In this document: piece after piece, positions 337 to 15,476 of the stretch
Numbering within the stretch: position 1 is the first letter of the stretch
Layout of the letters: every line of letters starts with the position of its first letter
DNA from: Yoonia sp.
Lineage (GTDB): Bacteria > Pseudomonadota > Alphaproteobacteria > Rhodobacterales > Rhodobacteraceae
Reading direction: 5' to 3'
Length of the DNA: 15,476 bases
NCBI GenBank assembly: GCA_020627605.1
Contig: JAHDGO010000018.1
Coordinates: forward strand, 1-15,476
Position numbers and translations under genes: made by a program
Notes under the pieces: model-generated
Databases searched by the model: none
Told to the model about the DNA's origin: nothing
What the model saw: the letters and a program-made list of their open reading frames with translations, nothing else

Positions 337-349
337 GAGGAATTGACCC

Positions 350-1192
350 ATGCACATCCCCCCCTTTGACAACCAGAACAAGCCGATTGTGGATGTGGAT
401 GACCCGACCGTTCCGCTGAACTATTTCAACATCGTGAAACTGACCAGAGGACAGGCGTTTGAATACGCTGTGCCGGGGTATGAAACCTGCATTGTGCCTG
501 CCACCGGGACCATTGATATCAACGTCGAGGGATTCAAGGCGACAGGCATCGGTGAACGGGTCGAGGACGTCTGGGATGGAGAGCCCGAGGGCGTTTACGT
601 GCCCACCGCCGCCAAGGCCGAGATGGTGTGTACGTCCGACGCTGCCGAGGTTTTCGTTTGTGGCGCGCGCTATGACAAGGTGCTGGAGGCATTTGCCGTC
701 CGCAAGGATGAGCTGGATCTGGTGCAATACGGATCAGACGACACCAAGACACACCGCAAGATCAAACATATCCTTGGCACGAAATACCACGACAAGGTAG
801 GCCGCCTGCTGGTGTCAGAGCTGTTTACCGTCGGCGAAGGTGGCTGGTCAGGCTTTCCCAGCCACAAGCATGACACCGACCGTCTGCCAGATGAAACGCG
901 GCATGATGAAACCTATAATTTCCGCTTCAAGCCCAACCATGGCTCCGGCGTACAGATGCTGCAGCGCGAGGATGGCAAGGCTGGCGATGCCTATCACATC
1001 GTCGATGGCTCGACCATTTGCCTTGATAGCGGCTATCACCCCTGCGCGGTGCTGCCGGGCTATCAGATGTATTACTTCACCATTCTGGGCGGTCTCAGCC
1101 AAAGGTCGCTGGTGCAGTATTTCCAGCCCAGCCATGCCTATCAGGTGGAAACCATTCCCGGCATCAAAGACATGATCGCCAAGTTCAAATGA
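350..1192 (+). CDS. iolB: 5-deoxy-glucuronate isomerase IolB
   Basis: 280 residues, close to the usual length of IolB (about 270). The enzyme converts 5-deoxy-D-glucuronate to 5-dehydro-2-deoxy-D-gluconate in myo-inositol catabolism, in the cytoplasm. It is a bicupin of the IolB/KduI type. The second cupin carries the metal-site motif PSHKHD (H172, H174), then a DETYNFRF segment (E187 a likely ligand), and the late His in GYHPCAVLPGYQMYYF (H230). Ligand roles are inferred from the family. The ATG at 350 has a good Shine-Dalgarno AAGAGGA at 335-341, which overlaps the stop of the kinase gene 13 bases upstream. The 3' end overlaps the aldolase gene by ATGA (1189-1192), suggesting translational coupling. 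Nothing is truncated and the family assignment is clear. Confidence 0.95.
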   Translation: MHIPPFDNQNKPIVDVDDPTVPLNYFNIVKLTRGQAFEYAVPGYETCIVPATGTIDINVEGFKATGIGERVEDVWDGEPEGVYVPTAAKAEMVCTSDAAEVFVCGARYDKVLEAFAVRKDELDLVQYGSDDTKTHRKIKHILGTKYHDKVGRLLVSELFTVGEGGWSGFPSHKHDTDRLPDETRHDETYNFRFKPNHGSGVQMLQREDGKAGDAYHIVDGSTICLDSGYHPCAVLPGYQMYYFTILGGLSQRSLVQYFQPSHAYQVETIPGIKDMIAKFK

Positions 1193-2016
1193 CCCTCGTG
1201 ACGCTGAAAGACGTGCTGCAACCGGCGTTGCAGCAAGGGTATGCCGTGGGTGGGCTTGTCTGTCTGGGATGGGAGGACATGCGCGCCTATGTGGCCGCCG
1301 CCGAGGCAGAGGATTGCCCGGTCATCCTGCAGGCCGGTCCCGGCTGTCGCGCGCATACGCCGCTGCCGGTTCTGGGCCGGATGTTCCGGCATCTGGCAGA
1401 GGGCGCATCGGTACCTGTCGTCGCCCATCTGGATCATGGCTACACCTATGACGAATGTGCCGAGGCGCTCGACAGTGGCTTTACCTCGCTGATGTTCGAC
1501 GGCTCGCGCAAGCCATTGGCCGAGAATATCGCCGAGACACGCAAGATTGTGGACATGGCTCATGGTGCCGCGATTTCCTGCGAGGGTGAGATCGGGTTTG
1601 TGGGCTATTCGGGCGGTGAAGCCTCTGCCGGGACCGACCCAGAGGAGGCCGCGCGCTTTGCTGCCGAAACGGGCGTTGATGCCATGGCGATTTCCGTGGG
1701 CAATGTGCATCTGCAACAGGATAAAGAGGGCGGTCTGGACGAACCCCGCATTGCGGCCATTCAGGCCATGACAGATGTGCCGCTGGTGATCCACGGTGGA
1801 TCGGGTGTGCCTGTGGACCAGCGCCGCAAGCTCGCCGCAACCACCAACATCTGCAAATTCAACATCGGGACAGAGCTGCGGATGGCCTTTGGTCAGGCTC
1901 TGCGCGACGCTGTGAATGCGGATGCGGACCGGTTCGACCGGGTCAGTATTCTGAAGGAAACGCATGATCCTGTCATGCAGGCCGCACGCGGCGTGCTGCG
2001 TCATCTGAAAGGCTGA
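1189..2016 (+). CDS. Class II (zinc) ketose-bisphosphate aldolase, probably the IolJ-type 6-phospho-5-dehydro-2-deoxygluconate aldolase
   Basis: 275 residues. The class II FBP/tagatose-bisphosphate aldolase pattern is complete: HLDHG with H80, catalytic D82 and zinc ligand H83; GEIG in the middle; a second His in GNVHLQ (H174); HGGSG (H202, third zinc ligand); then KFNIGTELR for phosphate binding. The 83/174/202 spacing matches the GatY/KbaY/IolJ group. In this operon the likely reaction is cleavage of 2-deoxy-5-keto-gluconate 6-phosphate to DHAP and malonate semialdehyde. Two oddities stand out. The usual N-terminal FN-type motif is replaced by a GGLVCLGWED segment, and the normal GT/S-x-HG around the second zinc His reads GNVHLQ. 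A different phosphorylated substrate is therefore possible. It overlaps iolB by 4 bases and ends 4 bases before iolG. Family certain; substrate inferred from neighbours. Confidence 0.88.
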   Translation: MTLVTLKDVLQPALQQGYAVGGLVCLGWEDMRAYVAAAEAEDCPVILQAGPGCRAHTPLPVLGRMFRHLAEGASVPVVAHLDHGYTYDECAEALDSGFTSLMFDGSRKPLAENIAETRKIVDMAHGAAISCEGEIGFVGYSGGEASAGTDPEEAARFAAETGVDAMAISVGNVHLQQDKEGGLDEPRIAAIQAMTDVPLVIHGGSGVPVDQRRKLAATTNICKFNIGTELRMAFGQALRDAVNADADRFDRVSILKETHDPVMQAARGVLRHLKG

Positions 2017-2020
2017 GGCG

Positions 2021-3016
2021 ATGATCAATATCGGTATTCTGGGCTGTGGCCGGATCGGGCAGGTGCATGGTGCGACCCTGCGCGGGATGACAATCGCGCG
2101 AGCCGCAGCGGTGGCTGACGCGATGCCAGAGGCGGCAGAGGCGCTGGCGAAAACCACCGGTGCTGCGGTGATGACACCGGACGCGATGATCGCATCGCCG
2201 GAGATCGACGCGGTGATCATCGGGACGCCGACAACCACGCATTACGACCTGATCCATGCCGCCGCTGCGGCGGGCAAGGCGATTTTCTGCGAAAAGCCCA
2301 TTGATCTGTCAGTGGACCGCATCCACGACTGCCTGAAGGCCGTTAAGGCGGCTGGCGTGCCATTCATGGTGGCCTTCAACCGGCGCTTTGATCCCAACTT
2401 TGCCGCGATCAAACAGCAGATTGCCGACGGCGTGATTGGCGAGGTCGAGATGGTGACGATCCTGTCGCGCGATCCGTCGCCGCCGCCGCTGGGCTATGTG
2501 GAAACCTCTGGCGGGATTTTCCGCGACATGATGATCCACGATCTGGATATGGCGCGCTTCTTGCTGGGCGAAGAACCTGACACACTGACCGCAGTCGGGT
2601 CTTGCCTTGTGGACCCAGAGATCGGGAAGTTGGGCGATTTTGATACTGCGGCGGTCACGCTAACGACCCCAAAGGGGAAGATCTGCCAGATTTCGAACTC
2701 GCGCCGGGCCACCTATGGTTACGACCAGCGGATTGAGGTGCATGGCAGCAAGGGCATGTTGCGCGCCGACAATATGGCGGAAACGACGGTGGAACTGGCC
2801 AATGCGGCGGGTATGACCACCGCCAAGCCGCAGCCATTCTTTCTGGAACGCTATGCGGCGGCCTATCGGGCAGAGATGGCCCATTTTGTTGATGCTCTGG
2901 CAACTGGCACCCCGGTGGCACCAACCGGTGCTGACGGGCTGAAGGCACAGATGCTGGCGGATGCGGCCGATGCGGCGGCCCGCGACGGGATGCCAAGGCA
3001 AATAACCCTCGATTAG
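2021..3016 (+). CDS. iolG: Inositol 2-dehydrogenase IolG (Gfo/Idh/MocA family)
   Basis: 331 residues, the normal IolG length. The N-terminal Rossmann domain has GILGCGRIG. The family EKP motif falls at residues 91-93, giving the catalytic Lys92. The C-terminal domain has GGIFRDMMIHDLDMARFLLG, with the catalytic pair D169 and H173 spaced as in Bacillus IolG. NSRRATYGYDQRIEVHG and FFLERY are further typical inositol-dehydrogenase segments. The enzyme oxidises myo-inositol to scyllo-inosose with NAD+, the first catabolic step, in the cytoplasm. It is the last gene of the iol operon in view, starting 4 bases after the aldolase stop with GAGG just upstream of the ATG. It could also act on related inositols or on glucose, as some IolG enzymes do. 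The remaining iol genes (D, E, A) are not in the window. Confidence 0.93.
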   Translation: MINIGILGCGRIGQVHGATLRGMTIARAAAVADAMPEAAEALAKTTGAAVMTPDAMIASPEIDAVIIGTPTTTHYDLIHAAAAAGKAIFCEKPIDLSVDRIHDCLKAVKAAGVPFMVAFNRRFDPNFAAIKQQIADGVIGEVEMVTILSRDPSPPPLGYVETSGGIFRDMMIHDLDMARFLLGEEPDTLTAVGSCLVDPEIGKLGDFDTAAVTLTTPKGKICQISNSRRATYGYDQRIEVHGSKGMLRADNMAETTVELANAAGMTTAKPQPFFLERYAAAYRAEMAHFVDALATGTPVAPTGADGLKAQMLADAADAAARDGMPRQITLD

Positions 3017-3238: not shown

Positions 3239-3805
3239 ATGTTTAAAAACACTGCACTTGAGGGCGTAGTCGTCTTTACGCCAAAGCGATTCGCCGACAG
3301 CCGCGGGCATTTCTCTGAAACCTACAATGCAGAGGTTTTTGCCGCACAGGGGATCACCACCCCCTTTGTGCAGGACAATCAGTCATACAGCGCTGCCGTT
3401 GGCACCGTGCGTGGGTTGCATTTTCAGGCCCCACCTGCGGCGCAGGCCAAATTGGTGCGCGTGCTGCAGGGCGAGATTTGGGATGTGGCCGTCGATGTGC
3501 GGACAGGGTCGCCTACATTCGGGCAATGGGTCGGTGTCAGCTTGTCAGCGGCAGAGGGCAATCAGCTGCTTATCCCCGCCGGTTTCCTGCATGGGTTTGT
3601 GACGCGCACGCCGGATTGCATGGTCAGCTACAAATGCTCTGCCACTTATGCACCTGACGCGGAAGGGTCCGTGCGGTTTGACGATCCGGCGCTGGGCATT
3701 GACTGGGGCATTGACGCCGACAAGGCGGTTTTGTCTGACAAGGATGCTGCCGCGCCGGGCTTTGCTGATTTCGTCTCGCCCTTCACATACGGACAAGCGA
3801 CATGA
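3239..3805 (+). CDS. rfbC: dTDP-4-dehydrorhamnose 3,5-epimerase RmlC
   Basis: 188 residues, the usual RmlC length. This cupin enzyme epimerises dTDP-4-keto-6-deoxyglucose at C3 and C5, the third step of dTDP-L-rhamnose synthesis. Evidence includes the N-terminal [18 protein letters not shown] segment, the catalytic His in VRGLHFQ (H61), the PAGFLHGF cupin motif, [12 protein letters not shown] with the conserved Tyr, the [10 protein letters not shown] segment (family W replaced by F), and a C-terminal LSDKDAAAP. The ATG at 3239 is the first possible start, because the frame has a stop at 3230-3232. It has only a weak ribosome site (TAGGT); the strong AGGAGGTT lies more than 40 bases upstream. 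It is the first gene of the polysaccharide operon and overlaps rmlB by ATGA. Confidence 0.95.
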
Positions 3806-4839
3806 AGATACTTGTCACAGGTGGTGCCGGCTTTATCGGGTCTGCCGTCGTGCGGCAGGCGGTGGCGCAGGGCCATGCGGTCGTCAATCTGGACGCGCTG
3901 ACCTATGCCGCCTGTCTGGCCAATGTGGCCAGCGTGGCCGATGATCCGAACTATGCCTTTGAAGAGGCTGATATCTGTGATCGCGCGGCGCTCGATCGTG
4001 TCCTTTCCGACCATCAGCCTGACGCGATCATGCATCTGGCCGCTGAAAGCCACGTGGACCGGTCCATCGACGGCCCCGGTGCCTTTATCGCGACCAACGT
4101 CACCGGCACCTATACGCTGCTGGAGGCCGCGCGCGCCTATTGGGAAGGGCGTGGCAGGCCGGATGATTTCAGGTTCCATCATATTTCGACTGATGAGGTT
4201 TATGGATCACTGGGTGCAACGGGCCAGTTCACAGAAGAGACGCCTTATGATCCGCGCAGCCCCTATTCTGCGTCGAAGGCGGCAAGTGATCATCTGGTGC
4301 GCGCTTGGGCCGAAACCTATGGCTTGCCCGTTGTCCTGACCAATTGTTCCAACAACTACGGTCCTTATCATTTCCCTGAAAAGTTGATCCCTGTGGTGAT
4401 CCTGAACGCCTTGCATGGCCGTCCGATCCCGATTTACGGCAAAGGCGAGAATGTGCGCGACTGGCTTTATGTGGAAGATCACGCCGATGCGCTGCTGACG
4501 GTTCTGAAAAAGGGCAAGCTGGGTCGCAGCTACAACATCGGGGGCGAGAATGAGGCCCGCAATATTGATCTGGTCAAGATGATCTGCGCGCTCTTGGATC
4601 AGCATCGCCCTGACAATGCGCCCCATGCCGATCTGATCACCTATGTCACCGACCGCCCCGGCCATGATCTGCGTTATGCGATCAACCCCAGCCGGATGCG
4701 GGAGGAGTTGGGCTGGCGCCCCTCTGTCACGCTGGAGGAAGGTCTGGCCAAGACGGTTGCATGGTATCTGGATAACCGCGACTGGTGGCAGCCATTGCTG
4801 GACCGTGACGGCGTCGGCCAGCGGCTGGGCAAGACATGA
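3802..4839 (+). CDS. rfbB: dTDP-glucose 4,6-dehydratase RmlB
   Basis: 345 residues, a normal RmlB length. This extended SDR converts dTDP-glucose to dTDP-4-keto-6-deoxyglucose using tightly bound NAD, in the cytoplasm. The nucleotide-binding GGAGFIG is at residues 7-13. The dehydratase catalytic triad region STDEVYG (T130, D131, E132) separates it from simple epimerases, and the SDR Tyr/Lys pair is in YSASK (Y155, K159). [30 protein letters not shown] and [15 protein letters not shown] are strongly RmlB-like. It starts inside the last codons of rmlC (ATGA) and overlaps rmlD in the same way. No residue appears to be missing. The 4-keto product could also feed pathways other than rhamnose, but the presence of rmlC and rmlD alongside argues for rhamnose. 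Confidence 0.97.
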
Positions 4840-5711
4840 AGGTTCTTGTCTTCGGCACCACGGGTCAGGTGGCCCGCGCTTTGGCTGATGCCGCCGCCGC
4901 ACATGATGTGACGTTGCTGGCGCTGGGCCGCGATCAGGCGGACCTGTCTGACCCTGCCGCCTGTGCCGCTGCCATCGCGCAAAGTGATGCGGATGCCGTG
5001 ATTAACGCCGCTGCATGGACTGCCGTGGATGCCGCCGAAGGGGAAGAGGCCGCCGCCCGCGTCGTCAACGCCGATGCGCCGGGTGCCATGGCGCAGGCCG
5101 CTGCGGCGAAAGGCCTGCCTTTCGTGCATATTTCGACTGACTACGTCTTTGACGGGCAGGCTGGCGCGCCTTGGCGGCCAGATGCCCCGACCGCGCCACT
5201 TGGGGCCTATGGGCGCACCAAGCTGGCTGGTGAACGCGCGGTGACGGCGGCGGGTGGGGCCCATGCCATTCTGCGCACGGCCTGGGTGTTTGACGGGCAG
5301 GGCCGCAACTTTGTCACCACGATGCTGCGACTGTCAGAAACCCGCGCCACGGTTTCAGTTGTCGCTGACCAGACGGGTGGCCCGACCCCTGCGGCAGCGA
5401 TTGCCGAGGCCTGCCTGACGATTGCCAAGGCACTGGTGGCTGACCCCGGCAAAAGCGGGATCTATCATTTCAGCGGCGCGCCCGATGTCAGCTGGGCCGA
5501 TTTCGCCCGCGCGATCTTTGCCACTGCAGGCCGCGATACTCTGGTCGCGGATATTGCGACCGTGGATTTCCCGACCCCTGCCGCACGTCCGGCCAATTCC
5601 CGCCTTGATTGCAGCCTAACGGTGGAAACATTCGGCATCCATCGCCCGGATTGGCAAGCCGCCCTGCGGCAGATGCTAGGTAAAGAGTTCGTCCAGAGGA
5701 CAAAGACATGA
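4836..5711 (+). CDS. rfbD: dTDP-4-dehydrorhamnose reductase RmlD
   Basis: 291 residues, typical for RmlD. It reduces dTDP-4-dehydro-L-rhamnose to dTDP-L-rhamnose with NAD(P)H, the last step of the pathway. The N-terminus [16 protein letters not shown] gives the Rossmann loop with the RmlD-type GxxGQ pattern. STDYVFDG (S100-G107) carries the catalytic Thr, and YGRTK (Y125, K129) is the SDR Tyr/Lys pair. [11 protein letters not shown] and the GIYHFSG segment near the C-terminus are typical of the family, as is the SRLDCS segment that leads into the last helix. The gene overlaps rmlB (ATGA) and rmlA (ATGA), so all four rml proteins are probably made by coupled translation. Confidence 0.96.
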
Positions 5712-6583
5712 GTGCACGCAAAGGCTTGATCCTTGCCGGCGGAACCGGTTCGCGGCTGTGGCCGATCACCCAGGGTTTGTCCAAGCAGTTGATGCCGATT
5801 TATGACAAGCCGATGATCTATTATCCGCTGTCGGTTCTTATGCTGTCAGGCATCCGCGAGATTGCAATCATCACCACCCCGCAGGACCAGCACCAGTTCC
5901 AGCAACTGCTGGGTGACGGATCACAATGGGGCGTTGACATCACCTGGCTTGTGCAGCCGACCCCGGACGGTCTGGCGCAGGCCTATCTGATTGCCGAAGA
6001 GTTTCTGGCGGGTGGCCCTTCTGCCATGGTGCTGGGTGACAACATCTTTTTCGGGCATGGCCTGCCAGAGCTTTTGGCAGCGGCAGATGCGCAGCCAGAT
6101 GGCGCGACCGTCTTTGGCTACCGTGTGGCGGACCCGCAGCGGTATGGCGTGGTGGGCATGGACGCCGATGACCGGGTGACGGAAATTATCGAAAAGCCCG
6201 AGGTCCCGCCCTCAAACTATGCTGTGACGGGGCTTTATTTTCTTGATGGCACGGCCCCCGACCGGGCGCGCGATATCAAGCCCAGTGCAAGGGGTGAGCT
6301 GGAGATTGTCACCCTGCTGGAAAGCTATCTGGCTGACGGCAGCCTGACCGTGGAACGCATGGGCCGGGGCTATGCCTGGCTGGACACCGGCACCCATGGC
6401 AGCCTGCTGGATGCCGGCAATTTCGTGCGCACCCTGCAAAGCCGTCAGGGCATGCAGACCGGCTGCCCCGAAGAGATTGCCCATGGACTGGGCTGGATCG
6501 ATGATGCGGCGCTGATGGATCTGGCGACGCGTTATGCCAAGACGGATTATGGCGCCTATCTGAAGGGGCTGCTGGACAGCTGA
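5708..6583 (+). CDS. rfbA: Glucose-1-phosphate thymidylyltransferase RmlA
   Basis: 291 residues, the standard length of the short RmlA form. It couples glucose-1-phosphate and dTTP to dTDP-glucose, the first and normally feedback-inhibited step of dTDP-rhamnose synthesis. The N-terminal LAGGTGSRLWP (from residue 9) is the nucleotide-binding loop, followed by the SKQLMPIYDKPMIYYPLS signature. GDNIFFGHGL contains the metal-binding Asp; EKP and GYAWLDTGTHGSLLDAGNF are further family motifs. The start ATG overlaps the rmlD stop (ATGA), with AGAGGA upstream inside rmlD as ribosome site. The stop overlaps the next ATG as TGATG (1 base). The order here is rmlC-B-D-A. Confidence 0.97.
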   Translation: MSARKGLILAGGTGSRLWPITQGLSKQLMPIYDKPMIYYPLSVLMLSGIREIAIITTPQDQHQFQQLLGDGSQWGVDITWLVQPTPDGLAQAYLIAEEFLAGGPSAMVLGDNIFFGHGLPELLAAADAQPDGATVFGYRVADPQRYGVVGMDADDRVTEIIEKPEVPPSNYAVTGLYFLDGTAPDRARDIKPSARGELEIVTLLESYLADGSLTVERMGRGYAWLDTGTHGSLLDAGNFVRTLQSRQGMQTGCPEEIAHGLGWIDDAALMDLATRYAKTDYGAYLKGLLDS

Positions 6584-7743
6584 TGGCGCAGGACACCCCA
6601 CATAAGACACGCAGCATCGCGATCATTGGCACAGGCTATGTGGCGGATTTCTATATGAAATCCATCCGGCTTTATCCGGATGTCGACATCGTGGCGGCCT
6701 TCGACATTGATGCAGAACGCTTGTCTGTCTTTTGCGCACATTGGGATGTGCCTGCTGCAAGCTCTGCGGATGAACTGTTTGCCGCCCTGCCGGATGATGG
6801 TCTTGTCCTGAACCTGACCAATCCTGACGCGCATTTCGCGGTCTCGCAGGCCTGTTTGCTGGCGGGCAAGCATGTCTATTCGGAAAAGCCGCTGGCGATG
6901 CGCATGACAGATGCCGATACGCTGGCTGATCTGGCGGTGGCCCATGGTCTCCACTTGGGTGCGGCGCCTTGCAGTTATCTGTCGCAATCGGCGCAAACCT
7001 TGTGGGCGGCTGTGCGCAGCGATGTGGCTGGCAAGGTCCGGTTGGCCTATGCCGAAATTGATGACGGCTATATCCGTCAGGCCCCTTACCAGCACTGGAA
7101 AAGCGAAAGCGGCGCCCCCTGGCCGGCCGAGGACGAATTTCAGGTGGGCTGCACGATGGAACATGCAGGGTATTACCTGACATGGCTGATCCAGATGTTT
7201 GGTCCGGTGCGCACGGTCGTTGCCGCCTCTGCGCAACTGACCGGCGACGGCGCTGCGGCCCATGATCTGTCAATCGGCACGCTGTTTCACACCTCTGGCG
7301 TGGTCACCCGGCTGACCTGTTCGATCATCGCGCCACATAACCATGAAATTCGCATTGTCGGTGACAAGGGTGTGCTGGAACTGGATGAATGCTGGGACAA
7401 TCTGGCCCCCGTCCGGTTTCGCAAACGGATGCGCATCCGCCGTCGCCTGTTGGAATCACCGCTGACGCGCAAACTGCGGCTGCCAGAGAAACTTGCCCAT
7501 CCGGTGCCTGCCAAGGGCGGGTCTGCCACGATGAATTTCTTTCTGGGCCCCGACCAGATGCTGCAAAGCATTGCCGCCGGTGATGATCCGAAACCGGCCA
7601 TGGATATGGCCCTGCATGTCAATGAGATCACGCTGGCCCTGCAGAACGCTGGCGAAGACAGCGGTGCCCTGCCGATGCAGACCCGCTGTGATCCCTTGCC
7701 GCCACAAAGCTGGGCCGCGCATCTGAAAGGGGGCGCGGCATGA
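6583..7743 (+). CDS. Gfo/Idh/MocA-family NAD(P)-dependent oxidoreductase in polysaccharide operon
   Basis: 386 residues. The N-terminal Rossmann domain begins with IAIIGTGYVADFY. The catalytic-Lys motif EKP is at residues 104-106. The C-terminal α/β domain has a candidate catalytic His in MEHAGYYL (H194). These enzymes oxidise or reduce a sugar hydroxyl/keto group, often on a nucleotide sugar. The exact substrate cannot be read from sequence. A basic stretch around residues 281-300 (RFRKRMRIRRRLL) is unusual for the family and could contact the membrane or a phosphorylated glycan; that is speculation. It starts on the rmlA stop (TGATG) and overlaps the following SDR gene by ATGA, so the two proteins are probably made together. 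The same domain pair occurs fused at 10870-12966. Confidence 0.88.
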   Translation: MAQDTPHKTRSIAIIGTGYVADFYMKSIRLYPDVDIVAAFDIDAERLSVFCAHWDVPAASSADELFAALPDDGLVLNLTNPDAHFAVSQACLLAGKHVYSEKPLAMRMTDADTLADLAVAHGLHLGAAPCSYLSQSAQTLWAAVRSDVAGKVRLAYAEIDDGYIRQAPYQHWKSESGAPWPAEDEFQVGCTMEHAGYYLTWLIQMFGPVRTVVAASAQLTGDGAAAHDLSIGTLFHTSGVVTRLTCSIIAPHNHEIRIVGDKGVLELDECWDNLAPVRFRKRMRIRRRLLESPLTRKLRLPEKLAHPVPAKGGSATMNFFLGPDQMLQSIAAGDDPKPAMDMALHVNEITLALQNAGEDSGALPMQTRCDPLPPQSWAAHLKGGAA

Positions 7744-8684
7744 CAGCCAAGACCCTGCTGATCACCGGCGCCGCCGGGTTCATCGGCCGTGCCGTTGTTG
7801 CACAAGCCCGCGCACGCGGCCATGCGGTGCGTGCGCTGGTGCGCCGGGCCGAGGCCGTGTTGCCGGAATGGGATGATGGCGTCACCCCGGTGATTGCCGA
7901 TCTGACTGACCGCGCCGCGATGGCAGAGGCGGTAGCGGGCGTCGATGCCGTGATCCATCTGGCCGCGACGCTGGCTGGTGATGCGCAGCAACGCTATCGC
8001 GACACGGTGGACGCGACCTATGCACTCTGCCGCGTCATGGTTGATCTGCCGGTGCCGCCACGGCTGGTGCTGATCAGTTCCATCTCTGTCTATGCCTGTG
8101 ATGCCGTGCCGGAAGGCGGCTGGCTGGATGAGACATCGCGCGTGGAGCGTGTGCCGCAGATGCGCGACATCTACTGCCGCAACAAGCTGGCGCAGGAAGA
8201 GGTTGTGGAAAGTTTCAAAGAGCTGGACGTGACGATCCTGCGCCCCGGTGCGGTCTATGGGCCGGGTCAGCTGTGGAACGCGCATCTGGGTCAACCACTG
8301 GGGCCCGTGCTGTGGCAATTCTCGCGCGCCGGGCATCTGCCTGTGATCTATATCGAAAACTGTGCTGCAGCGATTGTGAAGGCAACGGAACTGGGTGTGC
8401 CTGGCCCGATCAATCTGATTGACCCCAGCCCGCCGGATCGCGCGGCCTATCTTGATGCGCTGGACTGGCGCAAACCCGGCGTTGTCGTGCCATGGCGCGT
8501 TGTTGCCGCACTTGGCCGTTTGCTGCCAATCCCGCGCAAGCCGGGGCTGTTGCATCCCAATACACTGCAGGCCCGGATGATGCCGGTGCGTTACGATACC
8601 TCTGCCATGCAGGATCTGATGCAGGGTGAACATCTTGTCGCCTTCGAAGATGCCATGCGCATCAGCGTGAAGGCCAGCCGATGA
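7740..8684 (+). CDS. NAD-dependent epimerase/dehydratase (extended SDR)
   Basis: 314 residues. The N-terminal LLITGAAGFIGRAVV has the extended-SDR GxxGxxG loop (residues 10-16). VIHLAATLAGDAQQRY, the SSISVYA strand and the catalytic YCRNK (Y145, K149) complete the active site, and RPGAVYGPG follows as in nucleotide-sugar epimerases. It lacks the DE pair that marks 4,6-dehydratases such as RmlB, so epimerisation or reduction of a hexose derivative is more likely. The substrate is unknown. Compared with UDP-glucose epimerases the protein is short at the C-terminus. It overlaps the preceding oxidoreductase and the following GT4 gene by 4 bases each. Its placement suggests it makes or tailors a sugar used by the two glycosyltransferases downstream. 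Confidence 0.88.
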   Translation: MTAKTLLITGAAGFIGRAVVAQARARGHAVRALVRRAEAVLPEWDDGVTPVIADLTDRAAMAEAVAGVDAVIHLAATLAGDAQQRYRDTVDATYALCRVMVDLPVPPRLVLISSISVYACDAVPEGGWLDETSRVERVPQMRDIYCRNKLAQEEVVESFKELDVTILRPGAVYGPGQLWNAHLGQPLGPVLWQFSRAGHLPVIYIENCAAAIVKATELGVPGPINLIDPSPPDRAAYLDALDWRKPGVVVPWRVVAALGRLLPIPRKPGLLHPNTLQARMMPVRYDTSAMQDLMQGEHLVAFEDAMRISVKASR

Positions 8685-9889
8685 AGATCGCCTATCTGAC
8701 AGGGGAATACCCGCGCGCCACCGACACATTTATCCTGCGCGAGGTGCAGGGGCTGCGCGCGCTGGGTCTGGATGTCGTGACCTGTTCGGTGCGGACCACA
8801 GGGCCGGAACACCACGTCGGGCCGGAACAAAAGGCCGAGGCGGCAGCGACGTTCAAACTGCTGGATGCCGCCAAGAACCCGGCGCGTCTGATCAAGGCGC
8901 ATCTGCGCGCGCTGCGCCAGCCGGGGCGCTATTTCAGGGCCTTGCGACTGGCGGTGCGGACCTCGCCACCGGGGCTGCGCAATCTGCTGTATCAGCTCTT
9001 TTATTTTGCAGAGGCCGCCGTGCTGGCCGATCATCTGCACAGCGCCGGCGTGACGCATCTGCACAATCACATCGCCAAGTCGAGCTGCACCGTTGCGATG
9101 ATCACCTCGGCCATCTCAGGTATCCCTTACAGTTTCAGCCTGCACGGGCCGGATATTTTTTTTGAACCGCGTCACTGGCGGCTGGATGCCAAGATCGAAA
9201 CCGCCAGTTTCGTGGCCTGCATCAGCGATTTCTGCCGGTCGCAGGCGATGATCTTTGGCGCGCGCGACCACTGGGACAAGCTGCATATCATTCACTGCGG
9301 GGTAGAGCCTGAACGCTATGCCAAGGGGCCGCGGCCCGACAGTCCGACGCTGCTGTTTGTGGGCCGTCTGGCGGCCGTCAAAGGCGTGCCGGTTTTGTTT
9401 GAGGCCCTGCAATCGGTCATTGAACAGCATCCTGACGTCAGGCTGAACCTGATCGGCGATGGCCCTGAACGGGCGCGTCTGGAAAAACAGGCCAGTGACA
9501 TGGGTCTGGCCGATCATCTGACGTTTCTTGGGTATCAGTCGCAAGCCGCCGTGGCAGAGGCGCTGTCGTCCACTGACATTTTTGTCCTGCCCAGCTTTGC
9601 CGAAGGCGTGCCCGTGGTGTTGATGGAGGCGATGGCCGCCGAGGTGCCTGTCGTCACCAGCCGCATTGCCGGTGTGCCGGAACTTGTCAGCGATGGCGAA
9701 AGCGGCCTGCTGGTGCCGCCCGGTGCGCCCGGTCCATTGGCCGCCGCGTTGAACCGGTTGTTGGCTGACCCTGACCTGCGCGCCCGGATGGGCGCTGCCG
9801 GACGGGCCAAGGTGTCCGCTGAATTTGCCTCTGCCACCGAGGCGGCCAAGCTCAAGACGCTTTTTGAGACTTACGGGGCGCAGCGGTGA
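8681..9889 (+). CDS. Glycosyltransferase family 4 (GT-B fold)
   Basis: 402 residues. The N-terminal half starts MKIAYLTGEYPRATDTFILRE, typical of bacterial GT4 exopolysaccharide transferases, and includes HLHNHIAKSS and the acceptor-side HGPDIFFEPR. The C-terminal half has the donor-binding pattern: LLFVGRLAAVKG, GDGPERARLE, then FAEGVPVVLMEAMA with the retaining-GT4 E-x7-E motif (E308, E316), and GESGLLVPPG. It should transfer a sugar from a nucleotide donor to a lipid-linked intermediate at the inner face of the membrane. No membrane segment is seen. dTDP-L-rhamnose is a plausible donor because of the rml genes, but donor and acceptor cannot be read from sequence. It overlaps its neighbours at both ends. 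A run of eight T lies at 9156-9163. Confidence 0.92.
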   Translation: MKIAYLTGEYPRATDTFILREVQGLRALGLDVVTCSVRTTGPEHHVGPEQKAEAAATFKLLDAAKNPARLIKAHLRALRQPGRYFRALRLAVRTSPPGLRNLLYQLFYFAEAAVLADHLHSAGVTHLHNHIAKSSCTVAMITSAISGIPYSFSLHGPDIFFEPRHWRLDAKIETASFVACISDFCRSQAMIFGARDHWDKLHIIHCGVEPERYAKGPRPDSPTLLFVGRLAAVKGVPVLFEALQSVIEQHPDVRLNLIGDGPERARLEKQASDMGLADHLTFLGYQSQAAVAEALSSTDIFVLPSFAEGVPVVLMEAMAAEVPVVTSRIAGVPELVSDGESGLLVPPGAPGPLAAALNRLLADPDLRARMGAAGRAKVSAEFASATEAAKLKTLFETYGAQR

Positions 9890-10860
9890 TGGCTGATACA
9901 CCCGATATCGCCGTTGTCGTAATTGGACGCAATGAAGGCGCGCGTCTGGTCGCCGGGCTGGCCTCCTTGCAAGGGCAGGCCGCGCGGATCATCTATGTCG
10001 ACAGCGGATCAACCGATGACAGCGTGGCGGCGGCAAAGGCCGCTGGCGCAGAGGTCGTCGATCTGGATATGAGCGTGCCGTTCACCGCCGCAAGGGCGCG
10101 CAACGCGGGCTTTGACGCGCTCGATCCGATGCCCGAATTTGTGCAATTCATCGATGGCGATTGTCTGGTCGTGGCGGGTTGGCTGGACAAGGCCAGCGCC
10201 TATCTTGCCGCAAATCCTGATGCGGGCATTGTCACTGGCTGGCGGTCGGAAATCCACCCGGATGCCAGTGTCTTCAACAGCATGGCAGAGGTCGAATGGC
10301 ACCGTCCGGCTGGCGATATTCTGGCCTGCGGTGGCGACATGATGGTGCGCGCATCGGTCTTTGCCGATACCAGCGGATTCAACCCGCGCGTCATTGCCGC
10401 CGAGGATGACGAGTTTTGCACCCGTGTCCGCAAAGCCGGCTGGCGTGTGCATCGTCTGGCAGAGCCGATGACCCGCCACGATGCGGACATGATGCAGGTA
10501 TCGCAATGGTGGCAGCGGGCCGTGCGGACGGGCCATGGCTTTGCCCAGGTCGGTGCGCTGCACCCGGAGTATTTCAAGCGCGAACGTCAGCGCGTTTGGG
10601 TCTATGGCGGTGTCCTGCCTGTGCTGGCGCTGATCGGGCTGATCCTTGCGCCCTTGTTGCTGATCGCAGTTCTGGCCATCTATGGGCTGAACTATATCCG
10701 CACAGCCCGTGGGCTGATGCGTGACGGGCTGCCGCGCAATGCGGCATTGCACCAGTCAATCTATCTGACCTTGTCGAAAATACCCAACATGATTGGGCTT
10801 TTGACATATCACTGGCGCGTCGCGCGTAACCGTGACATGGCCATCATCGAGTACAAGTGA
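9889..10860 (+). CDS. Glycosyltransferase family 2 with C-terminal membrane segment
   Basis: 323 residues from the ATG at 9889; a GTG one codon earlier (9886) is possible and would give a GTGA overlap. ATG is preferred because TGATG is a common coupling junction. The GT-A domain has IAVVVIGRNEG at the N-terminus, DSGSTDDS (D38 and D43/D44, nucleotide binding), the metal-binding DGD (D89, D91) in FIDGDCLV, and an EDDEF segment (E172-D174) as likely catalytic acid region. QWWQRAVRTGHGF follows. A hydrophobic stretch at about residues 238-270 is one or two membrane segments, so the enzyme is probably anchored in the inner membrane. It would add a sugar to the lipid-linked repeat unit. It is followed by a 9-base gap before the fusion gene, the only true gap in this operon. 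Confidence 0.92.
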   Translation: MADTPDIAVVVIGRNEGARLVAGLASLQGQAARIIYVDSGSTDDSVAAAKAAGAEVVDLDMSVPFTAARARNAGFDALDPMPEFVQFIDGDCLVVAGWLDKASAYLAANPDAGIVTGWRSEIHPDASVFNSMAEVEWHRPAGDILACGGDMMVRASVFADTSGFNPRVIAAEDDEFCTRVRKAGWRVHRLAEPMTRHDADMMQVSQWWQRAVRTGHGFAQVGALHPEYFKRERQRVWVYGGVLPVLALIGLILAPLLLIAVLAIYGLNYIRTARGLMRDGLPRNAALHQSIYLTLSKIPNMIGLLTYHWRVARNRDMAIIEYK

Positions 10861-10869
10861 GACGCTAAA

Positions 10870-12966
10870 ATGGTACAAACACAGCTGCGCGCCGGGATCA
10901 TCGGCGCAGGGTATATCGCCACATGGCATGCCGATACGATCAAGGCGCTGCCCAATGCGCAACTGGCAGCAGTCTGTGATGTGTCCGCTGGCGCGGCAGA
11001 GGCACTGGCAGCGGGCTATGGTGCCACGGCCTACAATGATCTGGACCGGATGATCGCCGAGGGCAATCTGGACGTCGTCCATATCCTGACCCCCCCTGAC
11101 AGCCACCATGATCTGGCCGTCAAATGCGCTGCGGCCGGGTTGCACTGCATCGTCGAAAAGCCGGTTGCGACCTCTGCTGCGCAAACTCGCGCCATGGCAG
11201 AGGCGGGCGCTGCCGCTGGCAAGGTGATGGCGGCGAGCCATAACTTTCTGGGCATGCCCGGCTATGCGCGCCTGAAACAGGCGGCACAGGGTGGCGCGCT
11301 CGGCCGGATTTCGCAGGCTGAAATCAACTGGTGTTTTCCCCTGCCGCCCTTGCGGTCCGGTCCCTTTGGTCTGTGGCTGCTGCGCCAGCCCGGTAATCTG
11401 CTGCTGGAGCTTGGCCCGCATCTGTTTGCCTTTGCCCATGACCTTTTCGGCGGGGCAGAGGTTACGCATCTGGAACTGAGCAAGCCGATTGCATTGCCGG
11501 GCGGAGAGGTGCGCGATCAAAGCTGGCGCATTCTGGCCAAGGCCGGTGACGTCGATCTGACCTTCAATATCTCCATCGTTGAAACCGTGGATGAGCGCAG
11601 CGTGGTCCTGCGCGGATCAACCGCGCAGGCGCGGTTTGACTATGCCAACGACACATTGGTGATCCGGGGTGAAAACACCGCCGATCTGGTGGTGAACCCC
11701 TTTCGCGCGCAACTGTCACAAAGCGGGCAGCACCTGCGCGAGGGTGTCGTCAACCTGACCCGGCAGGTCGTGTCGCTGAACCGAAAATCGCCCTATGGCC
11801 TGAGCTTTCTTGGCACGATGTCCAGCATTTATGACAGCATCGCCAAGGGACAGCCGGTTGATACCCGCTTTGCCATGCAGACCGCCGTTGGTGTGATGCA
11901 AAGCATTGATGATGCGCTGGCGATGATGCCTGAACGCACAGTGCCTGCGCGGCCTACGGGCACGCCCAATCCAACCGTGATGGTGATCGGCGGCACCGGC
12001 TTTATCGGGCGTGCGTTGACCCGTGATCTGGTCAGCCGCGGCTATCATGTGCGTGTCCTCAGCCGGGGGCGCACAGGTCCCTTCCCCGATCTGGCCGACA
12101 AGGTGGAAACCGTGGGTTGTTCGCTGCGCGACACCGACGGTCTGACCAAGGCGATGGAAGGGATCGACACGGTCTACAACCTCGCCAAATCAATGGACAA
12201 AACCTGGGCCGATGCGCTGATCAACGATGTGGGTGTCAGCAATGGTGTGGCCGAGGCGGCGATGGCGGCAGGCGTGCGTCGGTTCATCTATACCGGTACG
12301 ATCGCGTCCTACGATATGTCGCAACCGACCGGCAAGATCACCGAAAGCATCGGTTTTCCCGACGATATGTCGGACCGCAATATCTATGCCCGGTCCAAGG
12401 CGGAATGCGAAAAGCAGCTGATGCAGATGCACCGCGACAAGGGATTGCCGCTGGTCATTGCGCGCCCCGGCATTGTGGTCGGCGAAGGTGGCCCGTTGCA
12501 GCACTGGGGCATTGGCCGCTGGCATGGGGCCGGTGCGGTGCGCATCTGGGGTCACGGGCGCAACAAGCTGCCGTTTGTGCTGATCGATGATCTGACTGAC
12601 GGGCTGATCCGGATGATGGAGCAGGACGGGCTGGAGGGGGAGGATTTCACCCTTGTCGGCGATCCGATCCTGTCGGCGCGCGAGTATTTTGATGCGATCC
12701 ATGACAAGATGGGCGCAAAACTGAATGTCACGTCCAGTTCGCTCCCGCTGCTTTTTGTGTCGGACAGCATCAAACATGCGTTGAAAGTTGGTCTCTTGCG
12801 GCGCAAGGGTCTGACGCGGGCCTCGCTGAAAGACTGGAAGTCACGCGCGCATTTCACACAGTTCGACAATGCCAAACCAAAAGAGGTGCTGGGCTGGGCG
12901 CCGGAGACAGACCGCGACAAGCTGATCGCTGGCGCGGTGACAGAGGCTAATCTCTTCGGTTTCTAA
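10870..12966 (+). CDS. Fusion protein: Gfo/Idh/MocA oxidoreductase + extended SDR (NAD-dependent epimerase/dehydratase)
   Basis: 698 residues, about the sum of two enzymes. Residues 1-350 form a Gfo/Idh/MocA oxidoreductase: the Rossmann loop GIIGAGYIA (9-17), the EKP motif (E96-P98, catalytic K97), and LLLELGPHLFAFAHD with a candidate catalytic His184. A Pro/Thr-rich linker (about 351-368) leads to a second Rossmann domain with VMVIGGTGFIGRAL (GGTGFIG at 374-380), a YTGTIASYD strand (474-482) and the SDR catalytic pair Y506 and K510 in YARSK, followed by RPGIVVGEGG. Both active sites look intact and the frame is open with no frameshift sign. The protein probably does two successive redox/epimerisation steps on a sugar. 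The substrate is unknown. It is the last gene of the operon and has a weak ribosome site. A sequencing error joining two genes is unlikely because the linker codes normally. Confidence 0.9.
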   Translation: MVQTQLRAGIIGAGYIATWHADTIKALPNAQLAAVCDVSAGAAEALAAGYGATAYNDLDRMIAEGNLDVVHILTPPDSHHDLAVKCAAAGLHCIVEKPVATSAAQTRAMAEAGAAAGKVMAASHNFLGMPGYARLKQAAQGGALGRISQAEINWCFPLPPLRSGPFGLWLLRQPGNLLLELGPHLFAFAHDLFGGAEVTHLELSKPIALPGGEVRDQSWRILAKAGDVDLTFNISIVETVDERSVVLRGSTAQARFDYANDTLVIRGENTADLVVNPFRAQLSQSGQHLREGVVNLTRQVVSLNRKSPYGLSFLGTMSSIYDSIAKGQPVDTRFAMQTAVGVMQSIDDALAMMPERTVPARPTGTPNPTVMVIGGTGFIGRALTRDLVSRGYHVRVLSRGRTGPFPDLADKVETVGCSLRDTDGLTKAMEGIDTVYNLAKSMDKTWADALINDVGVSNGVAEAAMAAGVRRFIYTGTIASYDMSQPTGKITESIGFPDDMSDRNIYARSKAECEKQLMQMHRDKGLPLVIARPGIVVGEGGPLQHWGIGRWHGAGAVRIWGHGRNKLPFVLIDDLTDGLIRMMEQDGLEGEDFTLVGDPILSAREYFDAIHDKMGAKLNVTSSSLPLLFVSDSIKHALKVGLLRRKGLTRASLKDWKSRAHFTQFDNAKPKEVLGWAPETDRDKLIAGAVTEANLFGF

Positions 12967-13032: not shown

Positions 13033-13365
13033 TCAGTCGAAGATCTTGGTTGGTTCTTCGGGCTCTTCGGGGGCGACAGGCTCAACCGTCTCGCCGCCAC
13101 TGGCGATGTCGGTATCTGTGCCGCCATCATCGTCGTCAGAATTGGCCGCGATGAGCGCCCCAACCACAACCAAGGCGACCACTGGCAGGACCCAATTTGG
13201 CAGTGCGGCACTGGATACCGGTGCTGTCGCGGGCGGTGTTTCGACCACGGGTGGCGGCACCATCTCCTCCACCGGTTTTGACATTCCGCCTGCATTGACT
13301 GACGAGCCGATCAGCATTGCGCCGAGAGAGGCCGCAACCACGGCCTTTGAACAGAGTTTACGCAT
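13033..13365 (-). CDS. Small secreted or membrane-anchored protein, Pro-rich with acidic tail (unknown function)
   Basis: 110 residues from the ATG at 13365-13363, chosen because a GGGGG ribosome site lies 7 bases upstream (13377-13373) and the protein then begins with a proper signal peptide. An ATG 27 bases further out lacks these. Residues 1-25 form a signal peptide ending SSVNA before GG. Residues 36-50 are Pro-rich. Residues 57-74 (NWVLPVVALVVVGALIAA) are a membrane segment, then SDDDDGGTDTD and a Glu/Pro-rich acidic tail. No enzyme domain is seen. The layout suggests a small envelope protein with a single anchor. It runs towards the polysaccharide operon, with 66 bases between the stops. 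Function unknown; any link to the polysaccharide is only positional. Confidence 0.75.
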   Translation of the reverse strand: MRKLCSKAVVAASLGAMLIGSSVNAGGMSKPVEEMVPPPVVETPPATAPVSSAALPNWVLPVVALVVVGALIAANSDDDDGGTDTDIASGGETVEPVAPEEPEEPTKIFD

Positions 13366-13813
13366 TTGATTTCCCCCACTGGTACCGGACAATATTTTTT
13401 TGAAAATACAACGCGATACCCCTCCCCCAAGTCAAGCCGGCAGGGTTGAAGCGGAGCCAGGACCAATCAGCGGAATTGCCCGGTTTCGCCTGTTTTGGGC
13501 GTTCTGGCACAGGCGACATTGGCGCGGGTTGCCTTGCCGATGCATCTGCCCTGACGTCTTACGCCTGCAACAAGAAAGCCCTACTTTAAAAGGTTAACCG
13601 AAGATGAACACACGCTCCGGGCTGACCAAATGCAGTGGGCTACAACCTGATTGGGCTGGCTTTCCCGGCCACAGCATCACCCCTTGCCAGACCATGCAGT
13701 CCGCCGTGTTGCGTAAATGAGTGAAACAAATTTTGAGCGGAAAGCTGCCGAGGACCGATGTATTATTGGGCGTTCACGCAGGATTGCATTGACGGCAGGG
13801 TACTACCGGTCGG
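13366..13813. other. 448-base intergenic region without a convincing gene
   Basis: Next to the small - strand gene is an AT-rich patch (13391-13410, with a T7 run at 13395-13401) where its promoter probably lies, though no good -35/-10 pair is evident. A perfect 8-base palindrome GGTTAACC is at 13592-13599, preceded by TTTAAAA. Two short + strand ORFs exist: 13604-13720 (38 aa) and 13758-13871 (37 aa, with GAGGA just before its ATG and its end antisense to the hydrolase gene). Neither resembles a known protein. The rest shows no RNA gene or repeat that could be recognised. Confidence 0.5.
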
Positions 13814-14746
13814 TCAGGATGGCACGCCTGTTCGTGGCATGGATGTGACGACCTCCCACACGATGCGCTGAAAGAACGCCGCCAGTTCCGGCCCCGGATC
13901 ATCCGCTGGCGTCCCGTCAAAGCGGCGCAACCGGTGCGGCAAGCCTGTCGGATCCTGTTGATAGAGCACGGCGTAATGCGTCAGCGCCATCAGATAGGCC
14001 CCGTAGTCATTGAAATGAATCTCGTCGCTGAACAGGTCGCGGTAGCTGCTGACCGGCCCCACCGGACCTTCTGCCTCTAGTCTGTCGGCCACGGCCGCCA
14101 TGACCTGCCCGCCGGGGATCAGATAGATCGGTTCCGGTGTGTCCATCATGGCGAGCGCCGGGCGCATGATCCGCCCTTCCCAGTTCTTGGGCAGATCGCT
14201 ATCCAGCCGCGCACGCCAGCCTTTGGGGTCATCAAGCTCGTGCCAGGTCTCGTAGAAATAGACCGGCGTGCCTTGCCCCTGCGCCTTGTCCGCCCAGTTG
14301 AACAGCATGCGCGCGGCACTGAAATAATCAATCGCGGCTTCAAGCTCGACCATCTCTGTCAGGACAAGCGCGTCGTAGTCGCCTGATCCCACGGCCTCAT
14401 GCGCGTCGCGGTAACGGGCGTGGTTGTTTTCGGCGTCAAAGCCGTTGATCGGCTCTTCGGGGTCCCAGTGCTGGCGCAGTGGCGCGCCCCAGCCCAGCTG
14501 GTTGTTGTAGTCGTGACCGGCGGGGGCGAGTTGCATCAACATGGCAGGCATATCATGCCCGATCAGGCTGTGGCCCAGATGGAACAGTTTGCGCGGCCCG
14601 TCAGGTGCCGGCGCCGGATCGGTGTAGAGGGCGGCAAATGTCGCCTCATCCAGCGGCGCGGGGTCGCGCTGGTAAAGTCCGAAGGCGGCCAGCACGACCA
14701 GCACAGGGGTCAGCACAAAAAGGATCAGGCGTTTGATACGGGTCAT
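13814..14746 (-). CDS. SGNH-like hydrolase with N-terminal membrane anchor
   Basis: 310 residues from the ATG at 14746-14744. A start 39 codons earlier is possible but would run far into the upstream gene and precede the signal sequence with unrelated residues. Residues 4-24 (IKRLILFVLTPVLVVLAAFGL) form a signal anchor or uncleaved signal, placing the domain in the periplasm. Block I of the SGNH fold is LFHLGHSLIGHDM with the nucleophile Ser60 in GHSL in place of the common GDSL/GNSY. The C-terminal DEIHFNDYGAYL gives the D-x-x-H pair D241 and H244. The usual Asn of block III is not obvious; the strand ALVLTEMVELE stands where it would be. The likely role is removal or transfer of an acyl group on an envelope glycan or lipid. 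It overlaps the phosphopantetheinyl transferase gene by ATGA. The fold call is fairly safe; the substrate is unknown. Confidence 0.72.
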   Translation of the reverse strand: MTRIKRLILFVLTPVLVVLAAFGLYQRDPAPLDEATFAALYTDPAPAPDGPRKLFHLGHSLIGHDMPAMLMQLAPAGHDYNNQLGWGAPLRQHWDPEEPINGFDAENNHARYRDAHEAVGSGDYDALVLTEMVELEAAIDYFSAARMLFNWADKAQGQGTPVYFYETWHELDDPKGWRARLDSDLPKNWEGRIMRPALAMMDTPEPIYLIPGGQVMAAVADRLEAEGPVGPVSSYRDLFSDEIHFNDYGAYLMALTHYAVLYQQDPTGLPHRLRRFDGTPADDPGPELAAFFQRIVWEVVTSMPRTGVPS

Positions 14747-15387
14747 GCAGGCACCTTTTGCGGCTGGCAGGTGGTCAGGATGAAACCGTTCACGATCCGC
14801 GCCTCCCCACCCATAGCAGGCAGGCCGCGCAGATCGTGGGTGGCGAATGTCGTGCCGGTCCACGTCAGGCGGACCGCGTCAAAACCGATGACCTGCCCGG
14901 TCAGTGGAAACTGCGCCTTGTAGATCGCCTCTTTCGCGCAAAAGACCTGCTTTGCGGCCAGGCCGGGGTCAGGCTGCGCGTTCACCCACAGCATGTCTTT
15001 GGCGGTGCAGATGATCGGGATCAGATCAGGATCAAGCGCTGTGGCGGCTTCGATATCCACACCGAGGGTTTCCTGGCCTGTCGCGCGCGTCACAACGGCG
15101 ATGCAGGCGCTGTCGCAATGGGCGATGCTGCCCACCAGGCCCGGCGGCCATTTCGGGGCGCCCTGCGGGCCTTGCGGGATGGCGGCGGGCGAAAGGCCCA
15201 GTTGCGCCATGGCAGCCCGCGCGGCGCGGCGTCCGGCGGCAAAACTGGCGCGGCGGGCCGGAACTGCGCGGCCCAATGCGGCGTCTTCGCCCGCCAGTAG
15301 ACCGATGGCCGGATCACGCGGATCGCTCAGGCCGATGCCTGCACCCGGCCCCAGCATCTGTTGCAGGTGATCGGCGAGGGCTTGCAT
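14743..15387 (-). CDS. 4'-phosphopantetheinyl transferase (EntD/Sfp superfamily)
   Basis: 214 residues. It moves the 4'-phosphopantetheine arm of coenzyme A to a Ser of acyl- or peptidyl-carrier proteins, making them active. Motifs: RRASFAAGRRAARAAM near residues 45-60; APKWPPGLVGSIAHCDS (77-93), the EntD-type WPxGxxGSxxH segment with H90; GVDIE with the Mg ligands D111 and E113; and AAKQVFCAKEAIYKA with K152, E153 and K157. All key residues are present. The EntD-like layout suggests a carrier protein of a siderophore or other NRPS/PKS product rather than the fatty-acid ACP. Its ATG overlaps the stop of the upstream gene (TGATG) and its own stop overlaps the hydrolase ATG (ATGA), so all three are one operon read leftwards. 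No NRPS or PKS gene is in the window. Confidence 0.9.
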   Translation of the reverse strand: MQALADHLQQMLGPGAGIGLSDPRDPAIGLLAGEDAALGRAVPARRASFAAGRRAARAAMAQLGLSPAAIPQGPQGAPKWPPGLVGSIAHCDSACIAVVTRATGQETLGVDIEAATALDPDLIPIICTAKDMLWVNAQPDPGLAAKQVFCAKEAIYKAQFPLTGQVIGFDAVRLTWTGTTFATHDLRGLPAMGGEARIVNGFILTTCQPQKVPA

Positions 15388-15476
15388 CAGCGTTTGCGAC
15401 GGGCTTCGCGCATAGCACGGCGGCGGGCCATGGCGTCCTGCAATCCGTCGCCCGATGGTGCGGACGCAGCGGCAAC
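15387..15476 (-). CDS. C-terminal end of an unidentified protein (truncated by window edge)
   Basis: On the - strand the frame is open from the window edge to a TGA at 15389-15387 that overlaps the ATG of the phosphopantetheinyl transferase as TGATG. The 29 visible residues are Ala/Ser-rich, then strongly basic (ending MARRRAMREARRKR). Such a tail is common at the end of cytoplasmic proteins in high-GC bacteria and gives no function. The tight overlap and matching strand support a real gene in the same operon. Given the downstream transferase, a carrier-protein-dependent synthetase or acyltransferase would be a reasonable guess only. Confidence 0.55.
   Translation of the reverse strand, partial: VAAASAPSGDGLQDAMARRRAMREARRKR

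Follow-up and report, generated by a model that had tools for sequence, protein, structure and literature searches.

A conserved Gfo/Idh/MocA–SDR fusion protein genetically paired with a GT2 glycosyltransferase in Yoonia and other bacteria

Contig JAHDGO010000018.1 of the Yoonia sp. assembly GCA_020627605.1 (15,476 nucleotides, hereafter called the window) codes for a 698-residue protein that joins a Gfo/Idh/MocA oxidoreductase to an extended short-chain dehydrogenase/reductase (SDR). This fusion is real and uncharacterised, and it is not peculiar to the Yoonia genome. The initial annotation of the window had framed it as an unusual single protein, which proved wrong, as it belongs to a large, conserved fused family tied to a gene for a GT2 glycosyltransferase. 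New here are the GT2 link, found in all 80 loci collected, the differing cofactor signatures of the two halves and the existence of solved Gfo relatives that oxidise a C3 hydroxyl. The open reading frame (ORF) extends from ATG to TAA and is organized as follows.

10870..12966, + strand: Gfo/Idh/MocA–SDR fusion, 698 residues (AlphaFold2 model with a predicted local distance difference test score, pLDDT, of 91.0 and a predicted template modelling score, pTM, of 0.86)
10876..11934, + strand: Gfo/Idh/MocA half, residues ~3–355, with the G12/G14 glycine motif, Asp37, EKP at 96–98 and E180..H184
11935..11973, + strand: variable linker, residues ~356–368
11974..12963, + strand: extended-SDR half (PF01370), residues 369–698, with GGTGFIG at 374–380, R395/R399 and T477-Y506-K510

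Three Pfam signatures account for the two halves, namely PF01408 at residues 6–121 (4.4e-26; 92.4 bits for a cut-off of 24), PF22725 at residues 132–252 (32.9 bits, cut-off 27) and PF01370 at residues 370–593 (5.1e-32; 111.6 bits, cut-off 20.9). The first half scores above both of its Pfam cut-offs and has the EKP lysine and the acid..His set of the Gfo/Idh/MocA family, and the second harbours the Gly-rich motif and the Thr-Tyr-Lys residues of extended SDRs in addition to its PF01370 score. The initial reading of one 698-residue chain with both domains is borne out by the ORF and these signatures, and the EKP, His184, GGTGFIG and Y506/K510 motifs that it named are all in place. The whole-chain model is of high confidence. 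As a fold search with the whole chain returned Gfo-half matches only, among the matches listed, we also modelled the SDR half alone (residues 368–698; pLDDT 94.5, pTM 0.93). Hydropathy analysis revealed no hydrophobic segment in the fusion at the threshold used.

We searched for relatives of the window fusion and obtained 1034 matches. The best 120 are between 661 and 720 residues long, all of them harbour both Pfam domains and, own protein aside, they are 61–79% identical to the query. Using an Aquisphaera member as the query yielded 2059 matches, with both domains in 117 of 120 among the matches listed; we call this second set 'planctomycete type', as those few of its matches that carry names are from planctomycetes. 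Family members are mostly found in Rhodobacterales, and also in other Proteobacteria, Planctomycetota and myxobacterial metagenome-assembled genomes (MAGs), one of the proteins coming from a Polyangiaceae MAG. Carriers include Loktanella, Thalassovita, Salipiger, Marivita, Hydrogenophaga, a Sandaracinus MAG, Paracoccus, Shinella, Ruegeria and Aquisphaera. The fusion is present once each in 26 of 149 genomes drawn from the window's taxonomic family (own genome counted), with no internal stop; 25 of these matches are almost full-length, whereas that of G069 covers residues 5–582. Among the genomes listed, the one other member of the same genus, G246, lacks it. Phylum-wide, 8 of 398 genomes have the fusion, seven of them from the window's family (own genome included) and one, G229, from another family at 29% identity.

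For analyses of genetic context we kept the best 80 of at least 423 confirmed loci, picked with SDR-half patterns and therefore leaning to close fused relatives. In all 80, the match to the fusion starts at residue 1–7 and ends at residue 696–698. The two-domain architecture is thus recurrent across genomes, and the stop-free matches in 26 of 149 family genomes and near-full matches in the 80 loci rule out an assembly or frameshift artefact. With the SDR half alone as the query, 193 matches were collected, and among the best 120 many are labelled partial or lie on short contigs. Five of them were read, corresponding to three full-length unfused proteins at 33–36% identity and two more distant ones at 25–30%; the matches also include sequences of 37–79% identity. 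Annotators' names for the family are generic ('NAD-dependent epimerase/dehydratase', 'predicted dehydrogenase/nucleoside-diphosphate-sugar epimerase'), with '1,5-anhydro-D-fructose reductase' in two listed cases.

We next aligned 80 sequences, i.e. the window fusion with 42 proteobacterial-type and 37 planctomycete-type proteins, the latter 79 picked from 240 listed. On average, identity to the window fusion is 63% in the Gfo half and 70% in the SDR half for proteobacterial-type sequences, and 33% and 38%, respectively, for planctomycete-type ones. Residues identical in all 80 include G12, G14, D37, E96, K97, P98, H124, N125, E180, G182 and H184 in the Gfo half, and G374, G377, G380, R395, R399, T475, T477, Y506, K510, H545, W546, G547, W551 and W560 in the SDR half. 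His184 is part of a GPH motif (residues 182–184), and the Glu found four residues ahead of it in all 80 fusions is replaced by Asp in the IolG protein of the window. The catalytic Thr of the SDR half, T477, aligns with S121 of a UDP-GlcNAc C4-epimerase, and T477 and Y506 match the Ser and Tyr mutated in its S121A/Y146F structure. Invariant columns number 23 of 347 in the Gfo half vs 51 of 322 in the SDR half, indicating that the former is less constrained. No column of the linker region (0/18, residues 351–368) is invariant, and the linker varies from 13 to 36 residues in length. Motifs HWG.G.W and WG.G at residues 545–563 are present in all 80 aligned fusions, and this stretch is possibly the substrate site of the SDR half. 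The G229 fusion, judged by eye, departs from these motifs.

The residue at the end of strand 2 or just after it is linked to cofactor choice in such enzymes, an acidic residue marking the NAD-binding type. The Gfo half has Asp37 where its strand 2 ends, and in the SDR half strand 2 (residues 394–398) is directly followed by Arg399. Both residues occur in 80 of 80 sequences and suggest that oxidation relies on NAD and reduction on NADP(H). The comparisons made were with Gox2253, whose Arg aligns with R399, and with the 4-epimerase, whose DDLS lies at this place, its DDL being set as an insertion by HMMER.

Comparisons with named enzymes did not yield an assignment. No named NCBIfam family claims the fusion, all matches being below threshold: HpnA (TIGR03466), the best, gives 85.8 bits for a cut-off of 367.65, IolG (TIGR04380) 79.3 bits for 355, archaeal UDP-GlcNAc 3-dehydrogenase (NF040723) 73.2 bits for 450 and levoglucosan dehydrogenase (NF052479) 64.2 bits for 650. 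The window also codes for an IolG at positions 2021–3016, which scores 430.5 bits with TIGR04380. In the PDB, none of the best 60 of 118 sequence matches spans both halves, each covering one of them. GenD2, KanD2, WlbA, GnnA and the levoglucosan dehydrogenase type share at most 22% identity with the Gfo half; several of its closest solved relatives oxidise the C3 hydroxyl of a sugar. Among sequences, Gox2253 (3wj7; 5.5e-18) best matches the SDR half, along almost the entire length of this half, and it shares the Arg after strand 2 but is only 24% identical; with the HpnA cut-off missed, the fusion is not HpnA. It also differs from GalE-type UDP-sugar 4-epimerases, which have an acidic residue just after strand 2, by Arg399 and by the absence of any acid in window residues 395–406. 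The already characterised two-domain protein that the initial annotation had allowed for was not recognised: among the papers listed in searches directed at the Gfo–SDR fusion, its locus, the Gfo relatives or Gox2253, we recognised none as describing the fusion or its locus, subscription papers being mostly outside reach.

The conserved genetic environment of the fusion includes a string of genes upstream of it. Counts across loci were obtained by tblastn.

9886..10860, + strand: GT2 glycosyltransferase (PF00535), with a hydrophobic stretch at residues ~236–271 by hydropathy; 9-base gap to the fusion
8681..9889, + strand: GT4 glycosyltransferase (Pfam); match in 76/80 loci
7740..8684, + strand: unfused SDR, 314 residues, distant paralogue of the SDR half (27% over 220 residues); 70/80 loci
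6583..7743, + strand: unfused Gfo/Idh/MocA, 386 residues, distant paralogue of the Gfo half (27% over 166 residues); 72/80 loci

In every one of the 80 loci, a match to the window's GT2 immediately precedes the fusion, 959–1028 bases before the fusion match. No solved relative of this GT2 was found at E 0.001. All four genes are present in 70 loci, in identical order in every one of them; the other ten are without some of the Gfo, SDR and GT4 genes, and in one of these (L048) the contig ends 1.6 kb upstream. With queries from locus L021, a WecG-type glycosyltransferase was detected in 68, a ParA-like ATPase in 60 and a Wzz-like protein in 55 of the 80 loci. As a gauge of co-evolution, Spearman correlations of identity ranks with the fusion were of no help, at 0.23 for GT2, 0.51 for GT4 and 0.01 for Gfo. 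Plasmids of Paracoccus sp. TOH and P. aminovorans carry the GT2–fusion gene pair amid metabolic and transport genes, without Gfo, SDR and GT4, and another glycosyltransferase gene is found ~3 kb further on. The Paracoccus genes (L010 14029–17085 and L109 11029–14085) adjoin an HPP family gene and lack the remaining polysaccharide genes known from the Rhodobacterales locus. In Aquisphaera, the gene directly before the fusion also codes for a GT2, 47% identical to that of the window, with the fusion itself at 36%. Outside of Proteobacteria, the gene neighbourhood was covered by this one Aquisphaera locus and by the Sandaracinus MAG within the 80. The placement of GT2 in Paracoccus, Aquisphaera and the 80 loci identifies GT2 plus fusion as the smallest conserved unit among closer members.

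The unfused Gfo and SDR genes (6583–8684) resemble the fusion in their families, order and gene string and, by eye, in their cofactor split. However, they are only ~27% identical to each half, and they are separate ORFs overlapping by 4 bases. The unfused Gfo has, by eye, a Tyr in place of the catalytic His184 (EHAGY at residues 193–197). An origin of the fusion from this adjacent pair is not supported, since Gfo and SDR genes of Halobaculum are closer to its halves (35% over 214 residues and 33% over 239 residues, respectively). A third ORF lies between the Halobaculum genes, which makes them only a loose model of the unfused ancestor.

Two complete domains, invariant catalytic residues, differing cofactor residues and a conserved gene pair are evident from sequence or model. 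Our tentatively favoured reading is that the fusion is a soluble bifunctional redox enzyme that remodels one sugar hydroxyl for the adjacent GT2. The Gfo half would use NAD+ and the catalytic set K97, E180 and H184 to oxidise one ring hydroxyl, most likely at C3, to a ketone. The SDR half would then reduce the keto-sugar with NADPH through T477-Y506-K510, yielding the epimer or some other rearrangement of the hydroxyl. With NAD+ consumed in the first step and NADPH in the second, the reaction would be driven one way, so that the pair, if the cofactor split is right, would oxidise and then reduce. The adjacent, membrane-anchored GT2 would finally transfer the product, as the gene order suggests, and GT2 plus fusion would represent a cassette of two genes that make the sugar and attach it, located in most cases within an exopolysaccharide locus. 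The initial annotation had already proposed an oxidation followed by a reduction at two complete active sites; the completeness of the sites is strengthened by the invariant catalytic residues and the confident folds, and the succession of steps remains a prediction, to which the NAD-type and NADP-type residues lend support. As that annotation also proposed, the keto-sugar may be channelled between the two sites, and the sugar made may be an undescribed one. A parallel is with DprE1 and DprE2, two enzymes that together epimerise a decaprenyl-linked sugar in a cell-envelope glycan pathway, one cofactor serving oxidation and another reduction. However, these two are separate proteins, and DprE1, which uses a flavin, has no relation to Gfo.

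The distant G229 fusion weighs against a general role of the GT2 partner. No GT2-like ORF of at least 150 residues directly precedes it; an ORF for a PMT_2-type membrane protein is located 2.6 kb upstream, and a GT4 gene directly downstream. This fusion is at L102 6501–13893 (contig C56 of G229), and no polyketide synthase (PKS) gene is among the ORFs listed in 20 kb.

The main rival to the favoured reading, which we hold to be somewhat unlikely, is that the same oxidation–reduction pair acts after transfer, on a polyprenyl-linked or oligosaccharide sugar, as DprE1 and DprE2 do on theirs. Gfo relatives that act on or bind assembled glycosides argue for it (GenD2 with an aminoglycoside, KanD2 with hydroxykanamycin according to the title, DgpA2 with isoorientin according to the molecule name), as do the hydrophobic stretch of the constant GT2 partner and the scarcity of rml genes, which accompany only 5 to 8 of the 80 fusions. 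Against it, nucleoside diphosphate (NDP)-sugar enzymes are the closest to the SDR half in fold, and the fusion has no hydrophobic segment of its own at the threshold used. We consider a redox-neutral SDR half, acting as a GalE-type epimerase or dehydratase, unlikely; in that reading, the Gfo half would perform a separate oxidation or reduction and the fusion would make a multi-step NDP-sugar. Arg399 is invariant, with no acid before D407 where the UDP-GlcNAc C4-epimerase has DDLS, comparisons that are few and not decisive, and the best sequence match, Gox2253, was deposited as a putative oxidoreductase. It is improbable that each half has a sugar substrate of its own and that the fusion serves co-expression only. 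The variability of the linker and the separate unfused Gfo and SDR genes of the same string would fit such an arrangement, but the fused form is the rule (120/120 and 117/120 among the matches listed), the full-length unfused relatives of the SDR half that were read are only 33–36% identical, and the whole-chain model has a high pTM.

In addition to the genes listed above, the window harbours the following features.

3239..6583, + strand: rmlC, rmlB, rmlD and rmlA (dTDP-L-rhamnose), each reaching one TIGRFAM equivalog cut-off
14743..15387, − strand: 4'-phosphopantetheinyl transferase (PF17837, PF01648) of neighbouring PKS and nonribosomal peptide synthetase (NRPS) genes; matches in 43/80 loci
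15387..15476, − strand: NRPS C-terminal tail, cut by the contig end; its translation resembles the L015 NRPS tail

The fusion is the last in a head-to-tail series of nine genes that starts with rmlC (3239), most of them overlapping by 1–4 bases. An obligatory supply of dTDP-rhamnose is unlikely, given the low number of loci with rml matches. Inositol-catabolism genes (pfkB-type kinase, IolB, class II aldolase and IolG) at positions 1–3016 abut the polysaccharide string but do not belong to it in other loci. A link of the family to this pathway was rejected, with IolB in 1 and IolG in 4 of 80 loci, the matches being weak, with a median identity of 29%, and some of them falling on the fusion. 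Downstream of the fusion, the minus strand carries two ORFs of unknown family, followed by the phosphopantetheinyl transferase and the NRPS tail. The 119-residue ORF (13033–13392) is signal-peptide-like, with a hydrophobic segment and an acidic tail, and had no match in the 80 loci by tblastn at 1e-8. The 349-residue ORF (13814–14863) had no Pfam or NCBIfam match at 0.001 and has matches in 17 of 80 loci.

Contig C103 of the same genome appears to follow the window, an adjacency inferred from the NRPS: its residues 1–1394 of 1518 are coded at C103:30–4226 (81% identical to the L015 NRPS), with ~95 residues on neither contig. This NRPS comprises formyltransferase, adenylation and MupA/Atu3671 luciferase-like domains, and C103 continues with genes for a GT2, a 2148-residue PKS (KS-AT-KR-DH-ACP-TE) and a DegT-type aminotransferase. 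The PKS/NRPS set (window 14743–15476 and C103, L108, 3–13239) appears to continue the polysaccharide gene string. Window and C103 may together form a polysaccharide–polyketide hybrid locus, which might be of greater interest than the fusion. In 62 of 80 loci, the flank of the fusion contains PKS or NRPS matches; among the 18 without any, six (L032, L037, L039, L065, L072 and L093) have a cut downstream flank and twelve do not. That the fusion tailors the polyketide or peptide of these neighbours, as the 62 loci and the apparent proximity of C103 might suggest, rather than a sugar is very improbable, as at most six of the 18 exceptions could be explained by a cut flank, the flank retrieved around the Paracoccus genes has no annotated PKS/NRPS gene, and the G229 fusion has a GT4 gene directly downstream and no PKS gene seen.

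In a bolder and rather doubtful extension of the favoured reading, GT2 and fusion would constitute a portable two-gene system, distributed from Alphaproteobacteria to Planctomycetota, that inverts one sugar hydroxyl, a single chain performing both the NAD+-dependent oxidation and the NADPH-dependent reduction, and that attaches the rare sugar so formed (e.g. C3-inverted), in marine Rhodobacterales to a polysaccharide joined to a PKS/NRPS product. If true, both the enzyme activity and this kind of hybrid envelope glycan would be new. With its two intact active sites, constant glycosyltransferase partner and minimal two-gene form, the fusion offers a tractable way into an unassigned sugar. Its assignment would give a function to a family that has generic annotation only, and the sugar would show what accompanies the polysaccharide-plus-PKS/NRPS loci of marine Rhodobacterales.
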